50,083 nucleotides of DNA from a virus: IMG/VR virus record IMGVR_UViG_3300043438_002632, positions 1 to 50,083 of that record. One strand, 5' to 3'. Position numbers and translations under genes: made by a program. This document shows positions 11,580 to 42,292 of the stretch, in pieces (position 1 is the stretch's first letter; every line of letters starts with the position of its first letter). The notes under the pieces were generated by a model. It was not told the DNA's origin, did no database searches, and saw only the letters and a program-made list of their open reading frames with translations.

Positions 11580-11984
11580 TCATAATTCTTGCAATTGTTT
11601 AAATTTCAAGATATTTTCAAAGTCTCTAGCGATATATCGAACGCTGTCGTAGATTTTTGAAAATAAACTGACGCAAAGTTTGAGTTCTTCAATATTCTCA
11701 TTGATTTCCTGTAATGAATCATCATTTTTAACATTATCCAGTGCGATTTTTGTCAAAACGACAGGGGCTTTTCCAATCACTTCGCTTGATAATGTCTTGA
11801 TCATCTTAGAACGCTTCGATTCGAGCTTTGAAAGTGCTCTTTCGTAGTCAGTCAACACCATTGCCCAAAACGCTTTTTCACTTGGAACCTGATTCAACTT
11901 ATCACGGAGTGTGAGATCATTAATATCAGAAACAAAGTCCTTATAACGCTTGGATAGTTCTTCTCTTTTTTGAATAACATTCAT
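11580..11984 (-). CDS. uvsY: UvsY-like recombination mediator
   Basis: 134 residues, all-helical, Lys/Glu-rich. The central segment (KAFWAMVLTDYERALSKLES) and the C-terminal segment (SLFSKIYDSVRYIARDFENI) follow the T4 UvsY layout, whose C-terminus is an amphipathic helix of the form CSGALDAIKSRGFAIKHIQDM. UvsY (137 residues in T4) loads UvsX on gp32-covered ssDNA. Length, position directly upstream of uvsW and the presence of UvsX in the same block support the call. Direct sequence similarity is weak, so this is a context-aided assignment. Confidence 0.65.
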   Translation of the reverse strand: MNVIQKREELSKRYKDFVSDINDLTLRDKLNQVPSEKAFWAMVLTDYERALSKLESKRSKMIKTLSSEVIGKAPVVLTKIALDNVKNDDSLQEINENIEELKLCVSLFSKIYDSVRYIARDFENILKFKQLQEL

Positions 11985-11997
11985 AGTGTTGTGTTAT

Positions 11998-12025
11998 ATT
12001 GTAAATACAATTATGTCATTGTCAA
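11998..12025 (-). promoter_or_regulatory. Early-type promoter for uvsY-uvsW-55
   Basis: Minus strand: TTGACA (12025-12020), 16 bases, TACAAT (12003-11998), then 13 bases to ATG 11984. Its -10 overlaps the late element of the divergent plus-strand gene. Confidence 0.75.
12002..12007 (+). promoter_or_regulatory. T4-type late promoter element for 12013
   Basis: TAAATA with 5 bases (CAATT) before ATG 12013. It shares bases with the -10 of the opposite early promoter; the palindrome TTGTAAATACAA spans both. Confidence 0.7.
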
Positions 12026-12276
12026 GAAAAGAAATAGAAAAAATGGAAAATATATACGAATCTATGTATTTTGAAGATATGAATTCAGCATCTGTTGTTG
12101 GTGGATCATCAGAAATACAAGAAATACCTATTGAGAATGAAGATACTTATGCTAAGGGTGATACTAGAATACCAACAGTTCTCGGTGTTCAAAGAAGAAA
12201 TAAAATCAAACCATTATTTGATCCAGCTAAACATCAAAAGAATAAAAAGAATGGTAAGATTAAGAAGAAAATGTAA
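12013..12276 (+). CDS. Small late protein with a segment resembling the major capsid protein arm
   Basis: 87 residues. I start at 12013 (MSLSRKEIEK), not 11986, because the late promoter element lies within the longer reading. Residues 44-62 (DTYAKGDTRIPTVLGVQRR) closely resemble residues 79-98 of the major capsid protein encoded at 40826 (DSYAQGDTRLPKILIPMIRR). The N-terminus ENIYESMYFE contains I-Y-E, compatible with gp21-type prohead cleavage. The C-terminus is strongly basic (KNKKNGKIKKKM). It is probably a head-associated protein, for example an internal protein or minor capsid component. No database family is recognised. Confidence 0.7.
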   Translation: MSLSRKEIEKMENIYESMYFEDMNSASVVGGSSEIQEIPIENEDTYAKGDTRIPTVLGVQRRNKIKPLFDPAKHQKNKKNGKIKKKM

Positions 12277-12488: not shown

Positions 12489-12947
12489 ATGTCAAATTGG
12501 AAAAATATGCCGGATAACACAGAGGGTTATCATGGATTTGTATATAAAATTTATAATAATCACCCTGATTCTTTAAAAAAATATTATATTGGGTGTAAAA
12601 AGCTTTTAAAAAGATTAAAAAGAAAGCCATTAAAAGGTAAAAAGCGCCCTAGAATATCTTATGTTGATAATGATGTTGAAAAATATTGGGGAAGTTCAGA
12701 AGAATTAAAAAGAGACATCGAAACATACGGATTAGAGTGTTTTTCTAAAGAAGTATTACACCTATGTGAAACTCAGTGGGAAATGAAATTCCTAGAAATG
12801 TTTGAACAGATGAAACACAATGTTTTATTTGACAATCAATCATACAATGGCATAATCAATGTTAGAATTAATTCTGTTCCAAAATCTTTACAGGAAAAAT
12901 ACAAAAACTTCGATTTTAATGAGTGTGCTGAGAGAAAAAATAAATGA
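12489..12947 (+). CDS. GIY-YIG nuclease, homing-endonuclease-like
   Basis: 152 residues. The N-terminal domain shows the GIY-YIG signature in divergent form: GFVYKIY (16-22) and KYYIGCK (31-37). It is followed by KYWGSSEELKRDIETYG and CFSKEVL, typical of phage GIY-YIG endonucleases, and the downstream Glu (LEMFEQ) and Asn-rich segment (DNQSYNG). No distinct C-terminal DNA-binding repeat is visible. It may be a free-standing homing endonuclease inserted between uvsY and the head genes, or a domesticated nuclease. It is served by an early-type and a late promoter. The next reading frame overlaps its 3' end by 29 bases. Confidence 0.8.
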   Translation: MSNWKNMPDNTEGYHGFVYKIYNNHPDSLKKYYIGCKKLLKRLKRKPLKGKKRPRISYVDNDVEKYWGSSEELKRDIETYGLECFSKEVLHLCETQWEMKFLEMFEQMKHNVLFDNQSYNGIINVRINSVPKSLQEKYKNFDFNECAERKNK

Positions 12948-13470: not shown

Positions 13471-13833
13471 ATGAGTAAGTTTTTAACCCTTGTCGAAAAT
13501 TACAATCCTGAAAATTCCACATTTGTTAGTGATGTACATGATCTAAAAATGCTGTTGAAGTCTCACGGAATAAAATTTGGAGTGAGTGGCGATGGCGTTT
13601 TTTATATTGACGATGCTGCGAATGAAAAAACCTATGTGGTTAAAATCGTAGATATGAAATCTTCCGATAAGGAAGAAGAGGATAACGAAGCATATGACGT
13701 AGTTGACGCGACGTCATCTATAAGCCCGCAAGCAGCGGCAGCGAAGGCTAATTTTATAAAAACTGCAAAGCCGAAAATACCAAAAGCGATTGCGGATTTA
13801 AATGCGAAAACTGTCGCAATATCAAAAATGTAA
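13471..13833 (+). CDS. Small late protein, probable head-associated
   Basis: 120 residues. The N-terminus MSKFLTLVENYNPENS carries LVE (7-9), a match to the [LI]-x-E cleavage motif of T4 gp21. The middle is beta-like (GVSGDGVFYIDD, KTYVVKIVDM). The C-terminal third is Ala/Lys-rich (SPQAAAAKANFIKTAKPKIPK). First gene of a run of five small late genes. No family recognised; an internal or minor head protein is the best contextual guess. Confidence 0.65.
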   Translation: MSKFLTLVENYNPENSTFVSDVHDLKMLLKSHGIKFGVSGDGVFYIDDAANEKTYVVKIVDMKSSDKEEEDNEAYDVVDATSSISPQAAAAKANFIKTAKPKIPKAIADLNAKTVAISKM

Positions 13834-13835
13834 TT

Positions 13836-14222
13836 ATGAAAAGTAAAACACTATCATTGATGCGTAAGTATCATAAAATGCTCTTAGAACAAGACGAGCA
13901 AGATCCCGCTGCCATGGACCCCGCAGCAGCTCCAGAAGGCGCTATGGAGGCTCCTATGCCACCCCCGGAACCCGAGCAGTTGAAAATGACACAGCAGGGT
14001 GAAAATGAGTATGTTAAAAGCATTCTGGAATTGAGTAAACTTTATTTGGACGCTGTTGGAAACTTGGAAGATAAAGATCAAATCGATCAAATTGCAAATT
14101 CATTCGATGATGCACTTAAACAAGGGCAAGTTAACGGCAGGGAATACTACAAACAATATCAAAAAGTAATGAACTCTCATATGCCAGATGAAATGAGAAC
14201 ATTACTCGGCAACATTAAATAA
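13836..14222 (+). CDS. Small late protein with Pro/Ala-rich linker
   Basis: 128 residues. A basic amphipathic N-terminal helix (MKSKTLSLMRKYHKMLLEQ) ends in LLE (16-18), fitting a prohead targeting/cleavage leader. It is followed by a low-complexity acidic Pro/Ala/Met linker (about residues 20-48) and a helical domain (residues 55-128). Starts 2 bases after the previous stop with no Shine-Dalgarno motif. Probably a core or internal head protein by context; not recognised otherwise. Confidence 0.65.
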   Translation: MKSKTLSLMRKYHKMLLEQDEQDPAAMDPAAAPEGAMEAPMPPPEPEQLKMTQQGENEYVKSILELSKLYLDAVGNLEDKDQIDQIANSFDDALKQGQVNGREYYKQYQKVMNSHMPDEMRTLLGNIK

Positions 14223-14225
14223 ATA
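14220..14225 (+). promoter_or_regulatory. Late promoter element for 14231
   Basis: TAAATA, 5 bases before ATG 14231. Its TAA is the stop codon of the upstream gene. Confidence 0.7.
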
Positions 14226-14230
14226 ATATT

Positions 14231-14707
14231 ATGGATTTTAAATTAAAAGAACACGGATTGATTTGGGAAAACTACATGACTCGTTTTGGATCACAAGACG
14301 AAGAAGATGATAGAGATGACAACATCATGGACGAAGGTGAATATGACCATTCAGATGAATATGGCGATGACGATTTCGGCGATGATGACTTTGGTGATGA
14401 CTTTGGTGATGAAGGTCAACAGAGTGTCGTGATGTCATTCGACACCTCAGAGCCCGTTGAAATGGATCACGACGACCATCACGAAGACGATCATGACGAC
14501 TATGCTACAACTGAGCGTAATGACATGATTAGAAGTGAATTGGCCAAATTGGTTGAGTTTGCAAATCGCTTGAGTGAAATGTCAAAAGATGCGGATTTCG
14601 AAGAATGGATGGCTGCAAAGATCACCAAAGCATCTGATTACACCAGCGATGTTTATTTCAGACTTTCTACAAAAGCCGATTACGCTAATTGCGGTTGCGA
14701 CCAATAA
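14231..14707 (+). CDS. Highly acidic Asp/Gly/His-rich late protein
   Basis: 158 residues. The N-terminal leader MDFKLKEHGLIWENY contains LKE (5-7) and IWE (11-13). Residues 22-62 hold tandem GDDDF/GDDF repeats, and a second acidic stretch is rich in His (DHDDHHEDDHDD), which could bind divalent metal. The C-terminal about 60 residues form a compact helical domain (SELAKLVEFANRLSEM, then MAAKITKASDYTSDVYFRL), resembling a small helical module seen in proteins of other marine T4-like phages, from memory. The net charge suggests a core or DNA-mimicking internal protein. Function unknown. Confidence 0.7.
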   Translation: MDFKLKEHGLIWENYMTRFGSQDEEDDRDDNIMDEGEYDHSDEYGDDDFGDDDFGDDFGDEGQQSVVMSFDTSEPVEMDHDDHHEDDHDDYATTERNDMIRSELAKLVEFANRLSEMSKDADFEEWMAAKITKASDYTSDVYFRLSTKADYANCGCDQ

Positions 14708-14713
14708 TTAATC

Positions 14714-15733
14714 ATGATTAATTTTCACGATTTCTTTTTTGAAAAGTATATAATCGGTTTGATCGAAGATGTATATATCGACGGTCTCGGAAAAATATCA
14801 TCAAAAATTGATAGTGGAAACGGTGCGTATAATGTTATTCACGGAGAAGATATACAAATCGACAAAAAACAAAAGCTCGTTCGATTTACTACTGTTAATG
14901 CGGTATCTTTGGAGAAAGACTTAATTGATGAAATTGTCATAAATGTCGGAGCTGGTAAAAGCGAAGACAGACCGGTTGTTAATTTTAATATAAAAGTAGG
15001 TGATCGGATTTTCAAAAATGTTCCGTTCAGCATTGGTAATAGAAGCAGCAACAATCAGAAAATTTTAATTGGTAAAGATTTTATTCAAAAATCTTTAGAT
15101 GCGCTGATTGATGTTAGTTTATCAAATGTTGCAGGTAGGAACTTGGAAGTAGAATTTGATCGTGTGAATGAATCTAGCAATGAATCATTTGATAGTGTGT
15201 CGCGAACTGTAAAACAACCCACAAACGAAATCCTCGCAGAATTACAAAAGTTAAAAACAACAAACGAAAGACTCGAATGGCTCCACCAAAATGGATTTTT
15301 AACGCAAGTAGAAGGTCACAATGCTGTAAATTTTGATGGGCGTGTAATAGTGATGATGCGACTTGGTAATATGGCCATGCCGTTTTATTTATCATCTGGA
15401 CTCGCAGGTAAGACTGATGTTCCGTCTGGTAAATGGTATGCAATTTTCGGAATCGATGAGGAAACCGGTTGGATAAACAAAGGAACCTCCGATCAAATGA
15501 TTGATCAATATGGATATAGAATCCTTCAAAGGATGGCTAGAATTTTAAATGAAGGGATTGGACAGATCAATCCAAGTAACCTGCCTCCATTAAGAAATGA
15601 TAGAAGCGTTAATAAAGCAACCAATGTTGATATTAATCCGGGTCCGCATAGTGATTATGATCGGTTTGTTGAAAATGCAAATAAATTACTCAGTGCTGTA
15701 GATAAAGAGCTTGATAAAATTATGACTCGATAG
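14714..15733 (+). CDS. Retropepsin-like (RimB/Zn-protease-type) domain protein
   Basis: 339 residues. After a short aromatic N-terminus, residues 13-135 follow the aspartyl-protease-like fold annotated as ATP-dependent zinc protease/RimB: K-x-DSG-x-G-x-Y at 31-38 (catalytic-type Asp33-Ser-Gly), a His in VIHGEDI, and near the end LIGKDF (118-123) followed by LIDVS. Residues 150-339 are a separate domain of unknown type (GNMAMPFYLSSGL, SGKWYAIFGID, a helical C-terminus). A Ser/Asn-rich linker joins them. It lies among small late genes, so it may be a virion-associated protease or a catalytically silent structural domain. Confidence 0.65.
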   Translation: MINFHDFFFEKYIIGLIEDVYIDGLGKISSKIDSGNGAYNVIHGEDIQIDKKQKLVRFTTVNAVSLEKDLIDEIVINVGAGKSEDRPVVNFNIKVGDRIFKNVPFSIGNRSSNNQKILIGKDFIQKSLDALIDVSLSNVAGRNLEVEFDRVNESSNESFDSVSRTVKQPTNEILAELQKLKTTNERLEWLHQNGFLTQVEGHNAVNFDGRVIVMMRLGNMAMPFYLSSGLAGKTDVPSGKWYAIFGIDEETGWINKGTSDQMIDQYGYRILQRMARILNEGIGQINPSNLPPLRNDRSVNKATNVDINPGPHSDYDRFVENANKLLSAVDKELDKIMTR

Positions 15734-15751
15734 ATATATACAATTTAATTT

Positions 15752-16225
15752 ATGAAAAAATATTCACAAAAACAATTATTAAATGAAGGCTTTTGGCAAG
15801 GTGTTGGTACTTTTGCCAAAAGAGCTGGCAATATTGCAAAATATGCTGCTGCAAAAGCACTACCAGTTACAACTCAAGCGGTCAGAGATGTTAGGGATAC
15901 ATTCAAAGATGTTAAAACACTCGCCACCGGAGGATCAGTTGTTGATAAATCGGCACAAACAGTGACACCTGAAGTAACGCAATCTATAAAGCAAGGATTG
16001 CTTAGACAAAATATTCGATTATCGTTCATACCGATTACTTATCAATCTTATGATCAGGCGACTAGAAAACATATATATAAAGCGACTGTTTTCAATAATG
16101 CTGGAAAAGAGGTTAGCTATTATGTAGATAAAGATGGAGTTATATTAAATCCCCCAGCTTCAACTGCACCAGCTTCAACTGCACCAACTACACCAGCTTC
16201 AACTTCTCCACCAGCATCTCCGTAA
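15752..16225 (+). CDS. Late protein with cleavable-type leader and Pro/Thr/Ser-rich tail
   Basis: 157 residues. N-terminus MKKYSQKQLLNEGFWQGVG has LNE (10-12) followed by Gly, the clearest [LI]-x-E leader in the cluster. Then a basic Ala-rich helix (FAKRAGNIAKYAAAKAL), a small beta domain (residues 85-130) and a tail of PAST/APTT repeats. The leader resembles T4 internal-protein capsid-targeting sequences in length and chemistry, which is inference from the pattern. Function unknown; possibly packaged in the head. Confidence 0.65.
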   Translation: MKKYSQKQLLNEGFWQGVGTFAKRAGNIAKYAAAKALPVTTQAVRDVRDTFKDVKTLATGGSVVDKSAQTVTPEVTQSIKQGLLRQNIRLSFIPITYQSYDQATRKHIYKATVFNNAGKEVSYYVDKDGVILNPPASTAPASTAPTTPASTSPPASP

Positions 16226-17324: not shown

Positions 17325-17990
17325 ATGAATGATAAAATTTTGGTTCTAAACAGGTTCTATTTCCCTGTTGGAACTTGTGATGTGAAGAAAACCTTTGGAA
17401 ACATATTTTCCGAAGTTGTGCATCCTTTGGACATCGTTTATGACCAAGATACCGATGGCAACAAACTTGAAACCATTTCATATTTCAATGTCATAAAAAC
17501 CGCAAAAGATTGGATGGGTCTTCCAATTCGAGACTACGACAATCGAATAAAAACAACACGAGGAGATGTAAGAATTCCATCTGTGGTGGTGTGTGCTACA
17601 TACGAAGGGATACCCCATAAAAAGGTGCTTTTTCCAACCAAACACAACATTTTCAAGAGAGATAAAAACATCTGCGGATACACTGGATTGAAGTTAGAAA
17701 AAGAAACTTTAACATTGGATCACATCTATCCGAGGTCTAGATATAAATCAAACCCAAACACTTGGGAAAACCAAGTAGCCTGCCACAGAGAGCTGAATAT
17801 GTGGAAAGGTGATAAATTACTAGAAGAGTGCGATTTAAAAACATTCAACCCAAGAGATCCCGATTTAAAAAATTGGCTGAGCACGCAAGGTCGTCGATTG
17901 AAATTGATGAAACCTGTCCAAAAACCAAAAAATGGATATGTTTTTGTTGATTTTCTAGAAGATTGGGAAATGTTCTTGAAATCTGAATAA
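17325..17990 (+). CDS. HNH endonuclease
   Basis: 221 residues. The nuclease core lies at residues 112-165: RDKNICGYTG, then LTLDHIYPRS (D132-H133), W-E-N149-Q and ACHRELNMWKGDKL. The order of Asp-His, Asn and His/Asn residues matches the beta-beta-alpha metal fold, though only part of the usual zinc-binding cysteines is present. The N-terminal 100 residues match the type of domain found in bacterial HNH proteins that begin with an intein-like or restriction-associated beta region. It has its own early promoter. Possible roles are homing, host DNA cleavage or packaging-associated nicking; the sequence does not decide. Confidence 0.82.
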   Translation: MNDKILVLNRFYFPVGTCDVKKTFGNIFSEVVHPLDIVYDQDTDGNKLETISYFNVIKTAKDWMGLPIRDYDNRIKTTRGDVRIPSVVVCATYEGIPHKKVLFPTKHNIFKRDKNICGYTGLKLEKETLTLDHIYPRSRYKSNPNTWENQVACHRELNMWKGDKLLEECDLKTFNPRDPDLKNWLSTQGRRLKLMKPVQKPKNGYVFVDFLEDWEMFLKSE

Positions 17991-38755: not shown

Positions 38756-39424
38756 ATGTCATTGAAATTGAAATTAATCTCAGAAAATCCTGATCTTTTT
38801 GAAAGATTCGAAATAATCGAAGAGCAAGATAACCTAAAAAAAGGTAATTCATTATATGTTAAAGGACCATTCATAGGATGCAATCAGGTCAATAAAAACA
38901 GAAGATTATACAATCTGGATGATACACGATCTGAGGTTAATAGATATATTGAAGAGATGGTAATTCCCGGAAGAGCTATGGGTGAATTAAATCACCCGAG
39001 CAGTGCTGATGTCAATCTCGAAAGAGCATGCCACTTGGTAACTGATCTATACGAAGAAGGTGATACTTTCTTTGGAAAGGCAAAAGTGTTATCAACACCA
39101 ATGGGCCAAATTCTCAGATCTCTTATCAATGATGGAGTTAAAGTTGGTATGTCAACAAGAGCCCTTGGTTCTATCCAAGAAGAATCAACCCACAGCGTTG
39201 TTAAAAACATGAGACTAGTTGCTGTTGATGCAGTTGCAGATCCATCATTCCCGAAAGCTTTTGTAAATGGTATTCTTGAATCAAAACAATGGGTGGTGTC
39301 TGATGATGGTGAATTCGAAGAAGTGTATGAAAATTTCGAGAAATCAATCAAGACTCTTCCAAGTAAAAACATGGATGCTTATTTGAAAGATCAAATTCTT
39401 AAATTTATCAACTCATTAAGTTAA
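38756..39424 (+). CDS. 21: Prohead core protein and maturation protease (gp21-like)
   Basis: 222 residues, near T4 gp21 (212). The motif GRAMGELNHPSSADV carries the catalytic His (H80), and GMSTRALGS the catalytic Ser (S133), as GELNHP and SSRGLGS in T4. QVNKNRRLY is the conserved N-terminal block. This serine protease cleaves head proteins after [LI]-x-E during maturation. Its own N-terminus MSLKLKLISEN contains ISE (8-10), a possible self-processing site. First gene of the 21-core-22-23 order seen in T4. Confidence 0.95.
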   Translation: MSLKLKLISENPDLFERFEIIEEQDNLKKGNSLYVKGPFIGCNQVNKNRRLYNLDDTRSEVNRYIEEMVIPGRAMGELNHPSSADVNLERACHLVTDLYEEGDTFFGKAKVLSTPMGQILRSLINDGVKVGMSTRALGSIQEESTHSVVKNMRLVAVDAVADPSFPKAFVNGILESKQWVVSDDGEFEEVYENFEKSIKTLPSKNMDAYLKDQILKFINSLS

Positions 39425-40825: not shown

Positions 40826-42292
40826 ATGAATAAACCAAACTCACCCGTTAATGAAAGCAGAACAGATGCACTCGTAAGAAAGTGGTCAAAGGTTCTTGAT
40901 TACAGCAGCAATGCTGTTCCAGAAATCCGCGACGAGCACACTTACAGAACAACTGCTATGCTTCTTGAGAACCAAGAGAAATGGTGTATGGAGTCTAATA
41001 GTTCTGGCGGAATTTTCGGTGCCACCGCAGGTGCTACCGGAGGTTCAGTTGGAAACACCGATAGCTATGCTCAAGGTGATACTAGACTTCCTAAGATCCT
41101 CATTCCTATGATCCGACGCACTTTCCCAGAGTTGCTTTCCAACGAACTTGTTGGTGTTCAACCTATGGGCGGACCAGTTGGTCTTGCTTTCGCTCTTCGT
41201 TACGCTTATCAATCAGACACCCTCAGCGATGGGGCTATCGATGGTAAGACTAGCGGTGGTGGCGCAGGCGGATTTGGTCAAGCCGCAGGTTACACTGGTA
41301 CCAATGGTATCAGTGCCTCACCATACAGCTCAGAGCTTGGTTTTCAACTTCTTGACACACGTTTCACAGGTACTACAGCAGGTGCTCTTTCTGGTAACTC
41401 AGAATGGTCATTCGCTGATCAAGACCGTGGTGTTGCTGAACTTCTACAAAACTACGAACTGACAGGTAAAATCCCTCAGATCGAGATGAAGTTCGAAAAG
41501 ACCGCAGTTGAGGCTGGAACTCGTAGACTTGCTACCCGCTGGTCTGTCGAGCTTGAGCAGGACCTTAAGAACATGCAAGGTATCGATATCGACGGCGAAC
41601 TCACTAACGCAATGAGTTATGAGATCCAAGCCGAAATCGACCGTGAAGTTGTCATCAGAATGATCCAGAGCGCCATGAATGGTGGTCTTGGAGCAGGTTA
41701 CTCCATCTGGAGCCCTGTAAGTGCAGATGGTCGCTGGACTGCTGAGCGTAATATCACTTTCTATCAAAAGCTACTAATCGAGGCAGGTCGTATGGCCGCT
41801 CGTAACCGTAGAGGTGCCGCTAACTTCGTTATCGCAACTCCTCGCGTTTGCACCATCCTCGAAATGCTTCCTGACTTCAAGACATTTGAAATCACCGGAA
41901 ACGTTTCAACCGCTGGTGTTGGTATTGCTAAGGTAGGTACAGTGGGAAGCCGCTTCACCGTTTATCGTGACACCAGAACAGAAGTTCAGAACAACACTCT
42001 ATACTCAGGCAACTACAGCGGCAGAACCCCTGCCCACACTCAATCCGTTGAGTATGCATTGCTTGGATATAAAGGTTCTGAGTACTATGATACTGGTATC
42101 ATTTACTGCCCATACATTCCGATCATGGTTCAAAGAACAATTGGTCCGAACGATTTTGCACCCCGTGTTGGTCTCATGACCCGTTACGGTATTGTAAATA
42201 ACATCTTCGGAGCAAATCTTTACTACCACTTGATCATTGTTAAGAACCTTGGTGATGCGTTTACTCCCGGAACAGTTTCAACTTACCTGTAA
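40826..42292 (+). CDS. 23: Major capsid protein (gp23-like)
   Basis: 488 residues (T4 gp23 521). IRRTFPELLSNELVGVQPM then GGPVGLAFALRYAY is the gp23 hallmark. The N-terminal TTAMLLENQEKW matches T4 IFENQEKD. Processing by gp21 probably occurs after LLE (46-48) or CME (54-56), leaving a Gly/Ser/Thr-rich arm (57-80) and the motif DSYAQGDTR (79-87). The C-terminal YYHLIIVKNLGDAF also fits. Codon usage is visibly different from the neighbours (many C-ending codons such as AAC, ATC, TTC), as expected for the most highly expressed gene. Followed by a strong terminator. Confidence 0.97.
   Translation: MNKPNSPVNESRTDALVRKWSKVLDYSSNAVPEIRDEHTYRTTAMLLENQEKWCMESNSSGGIFGATAGATGGSVGNTDSYAQGDTRLPKILIPMIRRTFPELLSNELVGVQPMGGPVGLAFALRYAYQSDTLSDGAIDGKTSGGGAGGFGQAAGYTGTNGISASPYSSELGFQLLDTRFTGTTAGALSGNSEWSFADQDRGVAELLQNYELTGKIPQIEMKFEKTAVEAGTRRLATRWSVELEQDLKNMQGIDIDGELTNAMSYEIQAEIDREVVIRMIQSAMNGGLGAGYSIWSPVSADGRWTAERNITFYQKLLIEAGRMAARNRRGAANFVIATPRVCTILEMLPDFKTFEITGNVSTAGVGIAKVGTVGSRFTVYRDTRTEVQNNTLYSGNYSGRTPAHTQSVEYALLGYKGSEYYDTGIIYCPYIPIMVQRTIGPNDFAPRVGLMTRYGIVNNIFGANLYYHLIIVKNLGDAFTPGTVSTYL

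Follow-up and report, generated by a model that had tools for sequence, protein, structure and literature searches.

A small basic protein of an uncultured T4-like phage lineage copies the N-fist of its own major capsid protein and has counterparts in T4 and cyanophages

The window, i.e., the whole stretch of 50,083 nucleotides analyzed here (positions 1 to 50,083 of the IMG/VR virus record IMGVR_UViG_3300043438_002632), encodes on its plus strand, at positions 12013 to 12276, a protein of 87 amino acids, with the ATG at 12013 and the stop codon ending at 12276, as the initial annotation had it. Directly upstream lies TGTAAATA (12000 to 12007, plus strand), which resembles a late promoter by its sequence; in relatives of the gene, TATAAATA or a close variant occupies this position, and such T4 late-type promoter sequences precede most of the corresponding genes in the window's lineage. 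The divergent neighbor is uvsY (11580 to 11984, minus strand; PHROG_231), kept across the lineage. The usual neighbor on the other side is a SegE-like GIY-YIG gene (12489 to 12947, plus strand; Pfam SegE_GIY-YIG, 3e-21), which falls in PHROG_447, oddly labelled "NAD synthetase." Since it adjoins the small gene in most relatives too, it is apparently resident and not a recent homing insertion. Farther downstream, genes at 13471 to 16225 start with capsid-targeting-like stretches ending in L/I-x-E (MSKFLTLVE followed by N, MKSKTLSLMRKYHKMLLE by Q, MDFKLKEHGLIWE by N and MKKYSQKQLLNE by G). Their relatives keep a MSKFL.LVE start, and the product of the gene at 14231 is very acidic; from these sequences, the region may encode a set of proteins of the prohead core. 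The gene at 13471 to 13833 differs from its equivalent in a 97%-identical contig (L001:11459-11926) by a wholly different C-terminal half, as if swapped by recombination.

The 87-residue protein has three parts. Residues 1 to 21 (12013 to 12075, plus strand) form a helical N terminus that ends in Glu21 and is comparable to a capsid-targeting sequence. Residues 22 to 58 (12076 to 12186, plus strand) comprise a Gly-rich stretch and then DTYAKGDTRIPTVLG. Residues 61 to 87 (12193 to 12273, plus strand) make a Lys/Arg-rich tail; the basic tail reported initially is borne out by 13 K/R against 2 D/E behind the motif, and all relatives are alike in this respect. AlphaFold predicted a helix at residues 5 to 24 with modest confidence and mostly low-confidence chain elsewhere. 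Searches of PHROGs and Pfam gave no match, and neither these nor the predicted structure point to the HK97-type fold domain of gp23/gp24 capsid proteins. In phage records, tblastn with the protein returned only a chance-level match to an unrelated S-RIM2 gene.

The protein that it resembles is the major capsid protein (MCP), gp23, encoded at 40826 to 42292 on the plus strand (Pfam Gp23, 4e-83; PHROG_138), about 28.5 kb away, close to the 28 kb first given. This gp23 shares about 32% identity with its best match among 50,697 phage records and has hundreds of relatives in IMG/VR; the lineage is uncultured. The window also encodes a gp21-type head maturation protease (38756 to 39424, plus strand; PHROG_207, 4e-57), the presumed processing enzyme. 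In T4, residues 1 to 65 of gp23 are removed by gp21, whose cut falls behind the glutamate of an L/I-X-E context (PMC9026906). The first ~25-26 residues of mature T4 gp23 (66 to 91) form the N-fist, which contacts four subunits, two in its own capsomer and two in the neighboring one, and which, when the shell expands, passes from inside to the outer surface; it is disordered or unpaired in the five subunits facing the portal (PMC9958956, PMC7136217). In the window's gp23, the predicted N-fist spans residues 57 to 87 (40994 to 41086, plus strand), from the predicted cut after Glu56 to the N-arm LPKILIPMIRR. This placement draws on the alignment with T4 gp23, the relatives and the T4 structure literature, and follows from the equivalence of LPKILIPMIRR with T4 PAVMGMVRR. 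Most MCPs of the lineage approximate ENQExWC[ILFY]xE up to the cut and ..GG[VI]FGA..xDxYAxGD[AST]RLPKILIPMIRRTFPELI after it. An AlphaFold model of the MCP built from 20 sequences reached a pLDDT of only 33, too low for comparing folds.

The initial annotation had aligned residues 44 to 62 of the small protein (DTYAKGDTRIPTVLGVQRR) with gp23 residues 79 to 98 (DSYAQGDTRLPKILIPMIRR) and considered the rest of the two proteins different. The alignment holds, with gp23 longer by one residue, and it proved too narrow: ungapped blastp matches residues 16 to 57 with gp23 residues 51 to 92 (E = 1e-6, no composition correction), across the region of the predicted gp21 cut, the Gly-rich linker and the DxYAxGDxRxP motif. 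The local alignment score of the two proteins is 72, against a maximum of 53 in 3000 shuffles and 43 for the next best open reading frame of the window compared with the gp23 N-terminal region. Used as query against the whole record, the small protein found only itself and gp23 (E = 1.3e-4 for gp23). A profile-profile comparison that left out the window's own group still gave 97.9% probability and E = 4e-13. A third motif-like match, at 17559, is due to chance and sits in an HNH endonuclease. The identity at DNA level is real, as GGTGATACTAGA occurs exactly twice in the window (12157 and 41075; 0.01 expected), but these 12 bases are uninformative in themselves, because codon usage alone would lead to about as much codon sharing at identical residues as is seen (9 of 16, 6.8 expected). 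The mimicry of the N-terminal region of the capsid protein is strongly supported by the conservation of the motif and by the comparison of lineages below, but what is copied is the cleavage region and the N-fist, up to the start of the N-arm, and not the whole arm.

The gene is kept in three close and 16 diverged relatives. A direct search with the protein found only the close ones; the diverged members came from searching records that carry related MCPs. They adjoin uvsY and usually have the GIY-YIG gene on the far side (the contig of G027 begins too near the gene for uvsY to be included). Nearly all members have the same order of elements: a targeting-type N terminus, a site of the LNE/LVE/ILE/LSE type, a GG-rich stretch, D-x-[YF]-A-x-G-D-x-R-x-P and a Lys/Arg tail. 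Five contigs of 177 to 207 kb have one diverged copy each, and the copy and gp23 are the sole responders in searches of them (gp23 is silent in G018). The motif, on whose conservation the initial annotation had made its reading depend, is kept in the diverged relatives and degenerate in one (G024; L123:1489-1737), where it reads DNYAKGVLSIP (DNYAKGVLSIPK) while the gp23 motif is intact; this copy is possibly decaying. In two cases, the segment is part of far longer proteins (269 residues in L103:958-1764 and 243 in L097:982-1710), of which one is extended at its C terminus by a part that matches PHROGs of unknown function and the other is rich in Gly/Ala.

To find counterparts elsewhere, we searched the genome of each phage with its own N-fist. 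The T4 N-fist finds gp61.1 (E = 1.2e-5), a protein of 54 residues annotated as hypothetical and encoded next to the primase gene 61. T4 gp61.1 reads MKTFKEFIKE followed by DMVAGDSGGNPENISIGTTSGAVVNKGPEQIPKKKKEESKEKEE, i.e., a copy of the phage's own N-fist and then a Lys-rich tail. Its start fits MKT[FY][KQ]EFIxE, a capsid-targeting sequence that occurs elsewhere in T4 only at ipII and ipIII, and cleavage after Glu10 is predicted to give the new N terminus DMVAGDSGGNPENISIGTTSGAVVNK. Other Straboviridae have counterparts (Vibrio phage nt-1, Aeromonas phages CC2 and Ah1, Acinetobacter phage Apostate, Citrobacter phage Merlin and others), mostly beside the primase gene, and the copy is mostly the C-terminal end of a protein of 135 to 165 residues. 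Most Straboviridae gp61.1 proteins have a conserved N-terminal domain (L142, L143, L144, L146, L147 and L151; ..YAxxFIRLLxKPFxEWxAYxxGIIDxxGxVxRxPxTxEEK..), whereas those of T4, Mexia and JEP8 lack it and have a short targeting-type start instead. Among the cyanophages, P-HM2_171 shares 70% identity with the N-fist of its phage (E = 4e-9), S-RIM2_181 is a further counterpart, and the S-RIM2 N-fist finds syn9 gp190 (E = 4e-10), P-SSM4_163, S-MbCM6_178, S-ShM2_188 and P-TIM40 gp190; E values for the cyanophage counterparts range from 4e-10 to 1.5e-4. These genes lie near the primase gene 61, and the N-fist copy stands at or near the start codon, with a basic stretch behind it. Relatives of gp61.1 were matched in as many as about 1,400 deposited phage records, with gp23 itself perhaps accounting for some of the matches, and relatives of the cyanophage counterpart in about 285. 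The resemblance has left traces in record labels: the Merlin gene is called "T4 gp23-like," some gp61.1 genes "major capsid protein" and several cyanophage genes "major head protein" or "gp23 precursor." Records of the cyanophage family T4-GC 426 carry the note "similar to Synechococcus phage S-SM1 protein," which may mark S-SM1 virion proteins. The N-fist search gave no second match in the T4-like phages BUCT-ZZ01 and HTVC008M, which suggests that the protein is dispensable or unrecognizable in some T4-likes.

The copies resemble the N-fist of their own lineage. In 29 phages that yielded both sequences, we scored every copy against all of the gp23 N-terminal regions. Mean scores within lineages, which take in own pairs and the other members of the lineage, were 78 to 82 in the Straboviridae, 97 to 106 in P-HM1/P-HM2 and 62 to 69 in the window's lineage, whereas cross-lineage means were 24 to 33, i.e., background. 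The true pairing scored higher than all of 20000 overall permutations, and pairing within lineages gave p = 0.001 for the window's lineage and p = 0.07 for the Straboviridae, figures that are descriptive because related rows are not independent. The block structure, with matches within lineages and background between them, is the solid result: the copied segment follows the capsid sequence across distinct T4-like lineages. P-HM1 and P-HM2 even differ in parallel in both proteins (NTPTT against NTQTT; VAGFDP against VDGFDP in gp23 and IAGFDP against IMGFDP in the copy). Codon sharing at identical residues is close to the codon-usage expectation in six phages, which argues for selection on the protein and not for recent copying of DNA; gene conversion as the source of the similarity is unsupported by the codons.

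The three groups share a design. The T4 gp61.1 family (PHROG_1823 and PHROG_2086, of unknown function) resembles the window's protein in having an N-terminal targeting or other segment, a gp21-type site, a copy of its own N-fist and a short basic tail, but its gene lies beside the primase gene 61 and the window's beside uvsY. The 87-residue protein showed no homology to either PHROG; the likeness is one of design only, with cross-lineage scores at background. The cyanophage family T4-GC 426/PHROG_4187 (syn9 gp190, P-HM2_171) also has its own N-fist copy and then a basic stretch, and differs in placing the N-fist at the very start, in lacking a cleaved leader, in its long C-terminal domain and in lying near the primase gene. 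Known head proteins offer partial parallels. IPII and IPIII of T4 have a capsid-targeting N terminus with a gp21 site that is exactly common to gp61.1, but they are larger and have no reported N-fist copy, and the leader of the 87-residue protein is only loosely similar to theirs. The T4 prohead core proteins gp68 and gp67 are small, and gp68 has a basic C terminus, but no resemblance to gp23 was seen in them. In phage P1, DarA and Hdf are internal to the head and touch the inner shell, and the DarA N terminus is cut by the prohead protease next to the MCP cut site (PMC12810830); unlike the mimic, they are larger and have no reported sequence copy of the capsid N terminus. Among T4 candidates, Inh (suggested by synteny near segE/uvsW) has only chance-level pieces in comparisons with gp23 and gp24 and was rejected as a gp23 mimic, and gp67, gp68, uvsY.-1 and uvsY.-2 show no such motif by eye.

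What could such a protein do? The initial annotation had thought of a minor capsid subunit, an assembly regulator or a head plug. The [LI]xE sites, the late-type promoter sequences and the targeting sequence of T4 gp61.1 together favor a protein of the head core or interior over an external subunit. The reading that we prefer, and hold at roughly even probability, is that of a head-targeted surrogate N-fist on a polycation, made late, usually trimmed by gp21 and docking at the N-fist sites of the capsid. The mimic would enter the prohead core through its N-terminal targeting segment and be cut by the gp21-type protease at about Glu21, which aligns with the predicted cleavage residue of gp23, Glu56, in the same kind of site. 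The mature fragment would start like the mature capsid protein and end in a polycation. It would most likely dock at capsid sites that lack an N-fist of their own (those around the portal vertex or those that face pentamers) or else compete with the N-fist for its site, and its basic tail would bind to the DNA packaged in the head, to the acidic core or to the portal. Such sites may be unfilled in T4, because the portal-facing N-fists are without a partner and gp24 is described as lacking an N-fist.

Several points constrain this scheme, which we infer from sequence, among them the two T4-likes without a second match. The site of the 87-residue protein, behind its 21-residue helix, is Y-F-E and not L/I-x-E, which counts against the proposed processing; relatives have LNE, LVE, ILE or LSE. 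Processing by gp21 is not universal, since the cyanophage copies open with the N-fist itself, without a targeting sequence before it. Moreover, N-fists end outside the mature shell, and an internal mimic would have to be threaded out, as the gp23 N terminus is. We consider it possible, though somewhat improbable, that T4-like phages generally carry a surrogate N-fist of this kind, overlooked even in T4 (gp61.1), which fills partnerless sites at the portal vertex or facing pentons, links the shell through its basic tail with DNA, core or portal and evolves in step with the capsid.

Alternatively, the mimic could be an assembly regulator or decoy that competes with gp23 for the protease or the N-fist site, holds back cleavage or expansion while the head is still being completed and is degraded or expelled afterwards. 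The copying of the cleavage region along with the N-fist fits this idea, and the T4 protease inhibitor Inh shows that such control exists. Yet Inh does not resemble gp23, the cyanophage copies have no cleavage site and the motif is absent from other gp21 substrates (the mimic and gp23 alone respond in whole-record searches), so that the motif is no general protease recognition element; we regard a regulator as unlikely. A low probability also goes to an internal protein that the N-fist merely anchors to the shell and whose real task is to act in the infected host or to condense DNA. It would account for the basic tails, the ipII/ipIII targeting sequence of T4 gp61.1 and the extra C-terminal domains of some copies, but most copies consist of a targeting segment, the N-fist and the tail only, which leaves little room for another activity.

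Explanations without a function fare worse. Similarity to a piece of gp23 is what a functionless fragment of a duplicated capsid gene would leave, but synteny and conservation across deeply diverged phages, intact reading frames, late-type promoter sequences and the way in which the changing N-fist is followed in each lineage make a relic very improbable. Chance resemblance could be argued from the shortness of the motif and from a genome that is AT-rich and biased in its codons; against the shuffle and reading-frame scores, the diverged relatives, the profile-profile E value and the lineage-specific copies in other phages, its probability is close to nil. Both are effectively excluded.

T4 is the reference for head assembly in large phages, and its parts list is thought to be nearly complete. 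The published list of T4 head parts does not include gp61.1 (PMC9026906 Table 1), which counts against the preferred reading, and we found no paper describing a function of gp61.1 or N-fist mimicry in a literature search of incomplete coverage. What appears to be new is that one design recurs in distinct lineages, is tied to the N-fist, follows its sequence and is present in T4 itself. Our results point to what seems to be a widespread and so far unstudied part of capsid assembly in many T4-like phages, T4 included. A mimic of the start of the capsid protein would be a missing component or regulator of the T4 head, and its sequence offers an evolutionary readout of which N-fist residues matter. 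The idea is directly testable in T4 through gene 61.1.
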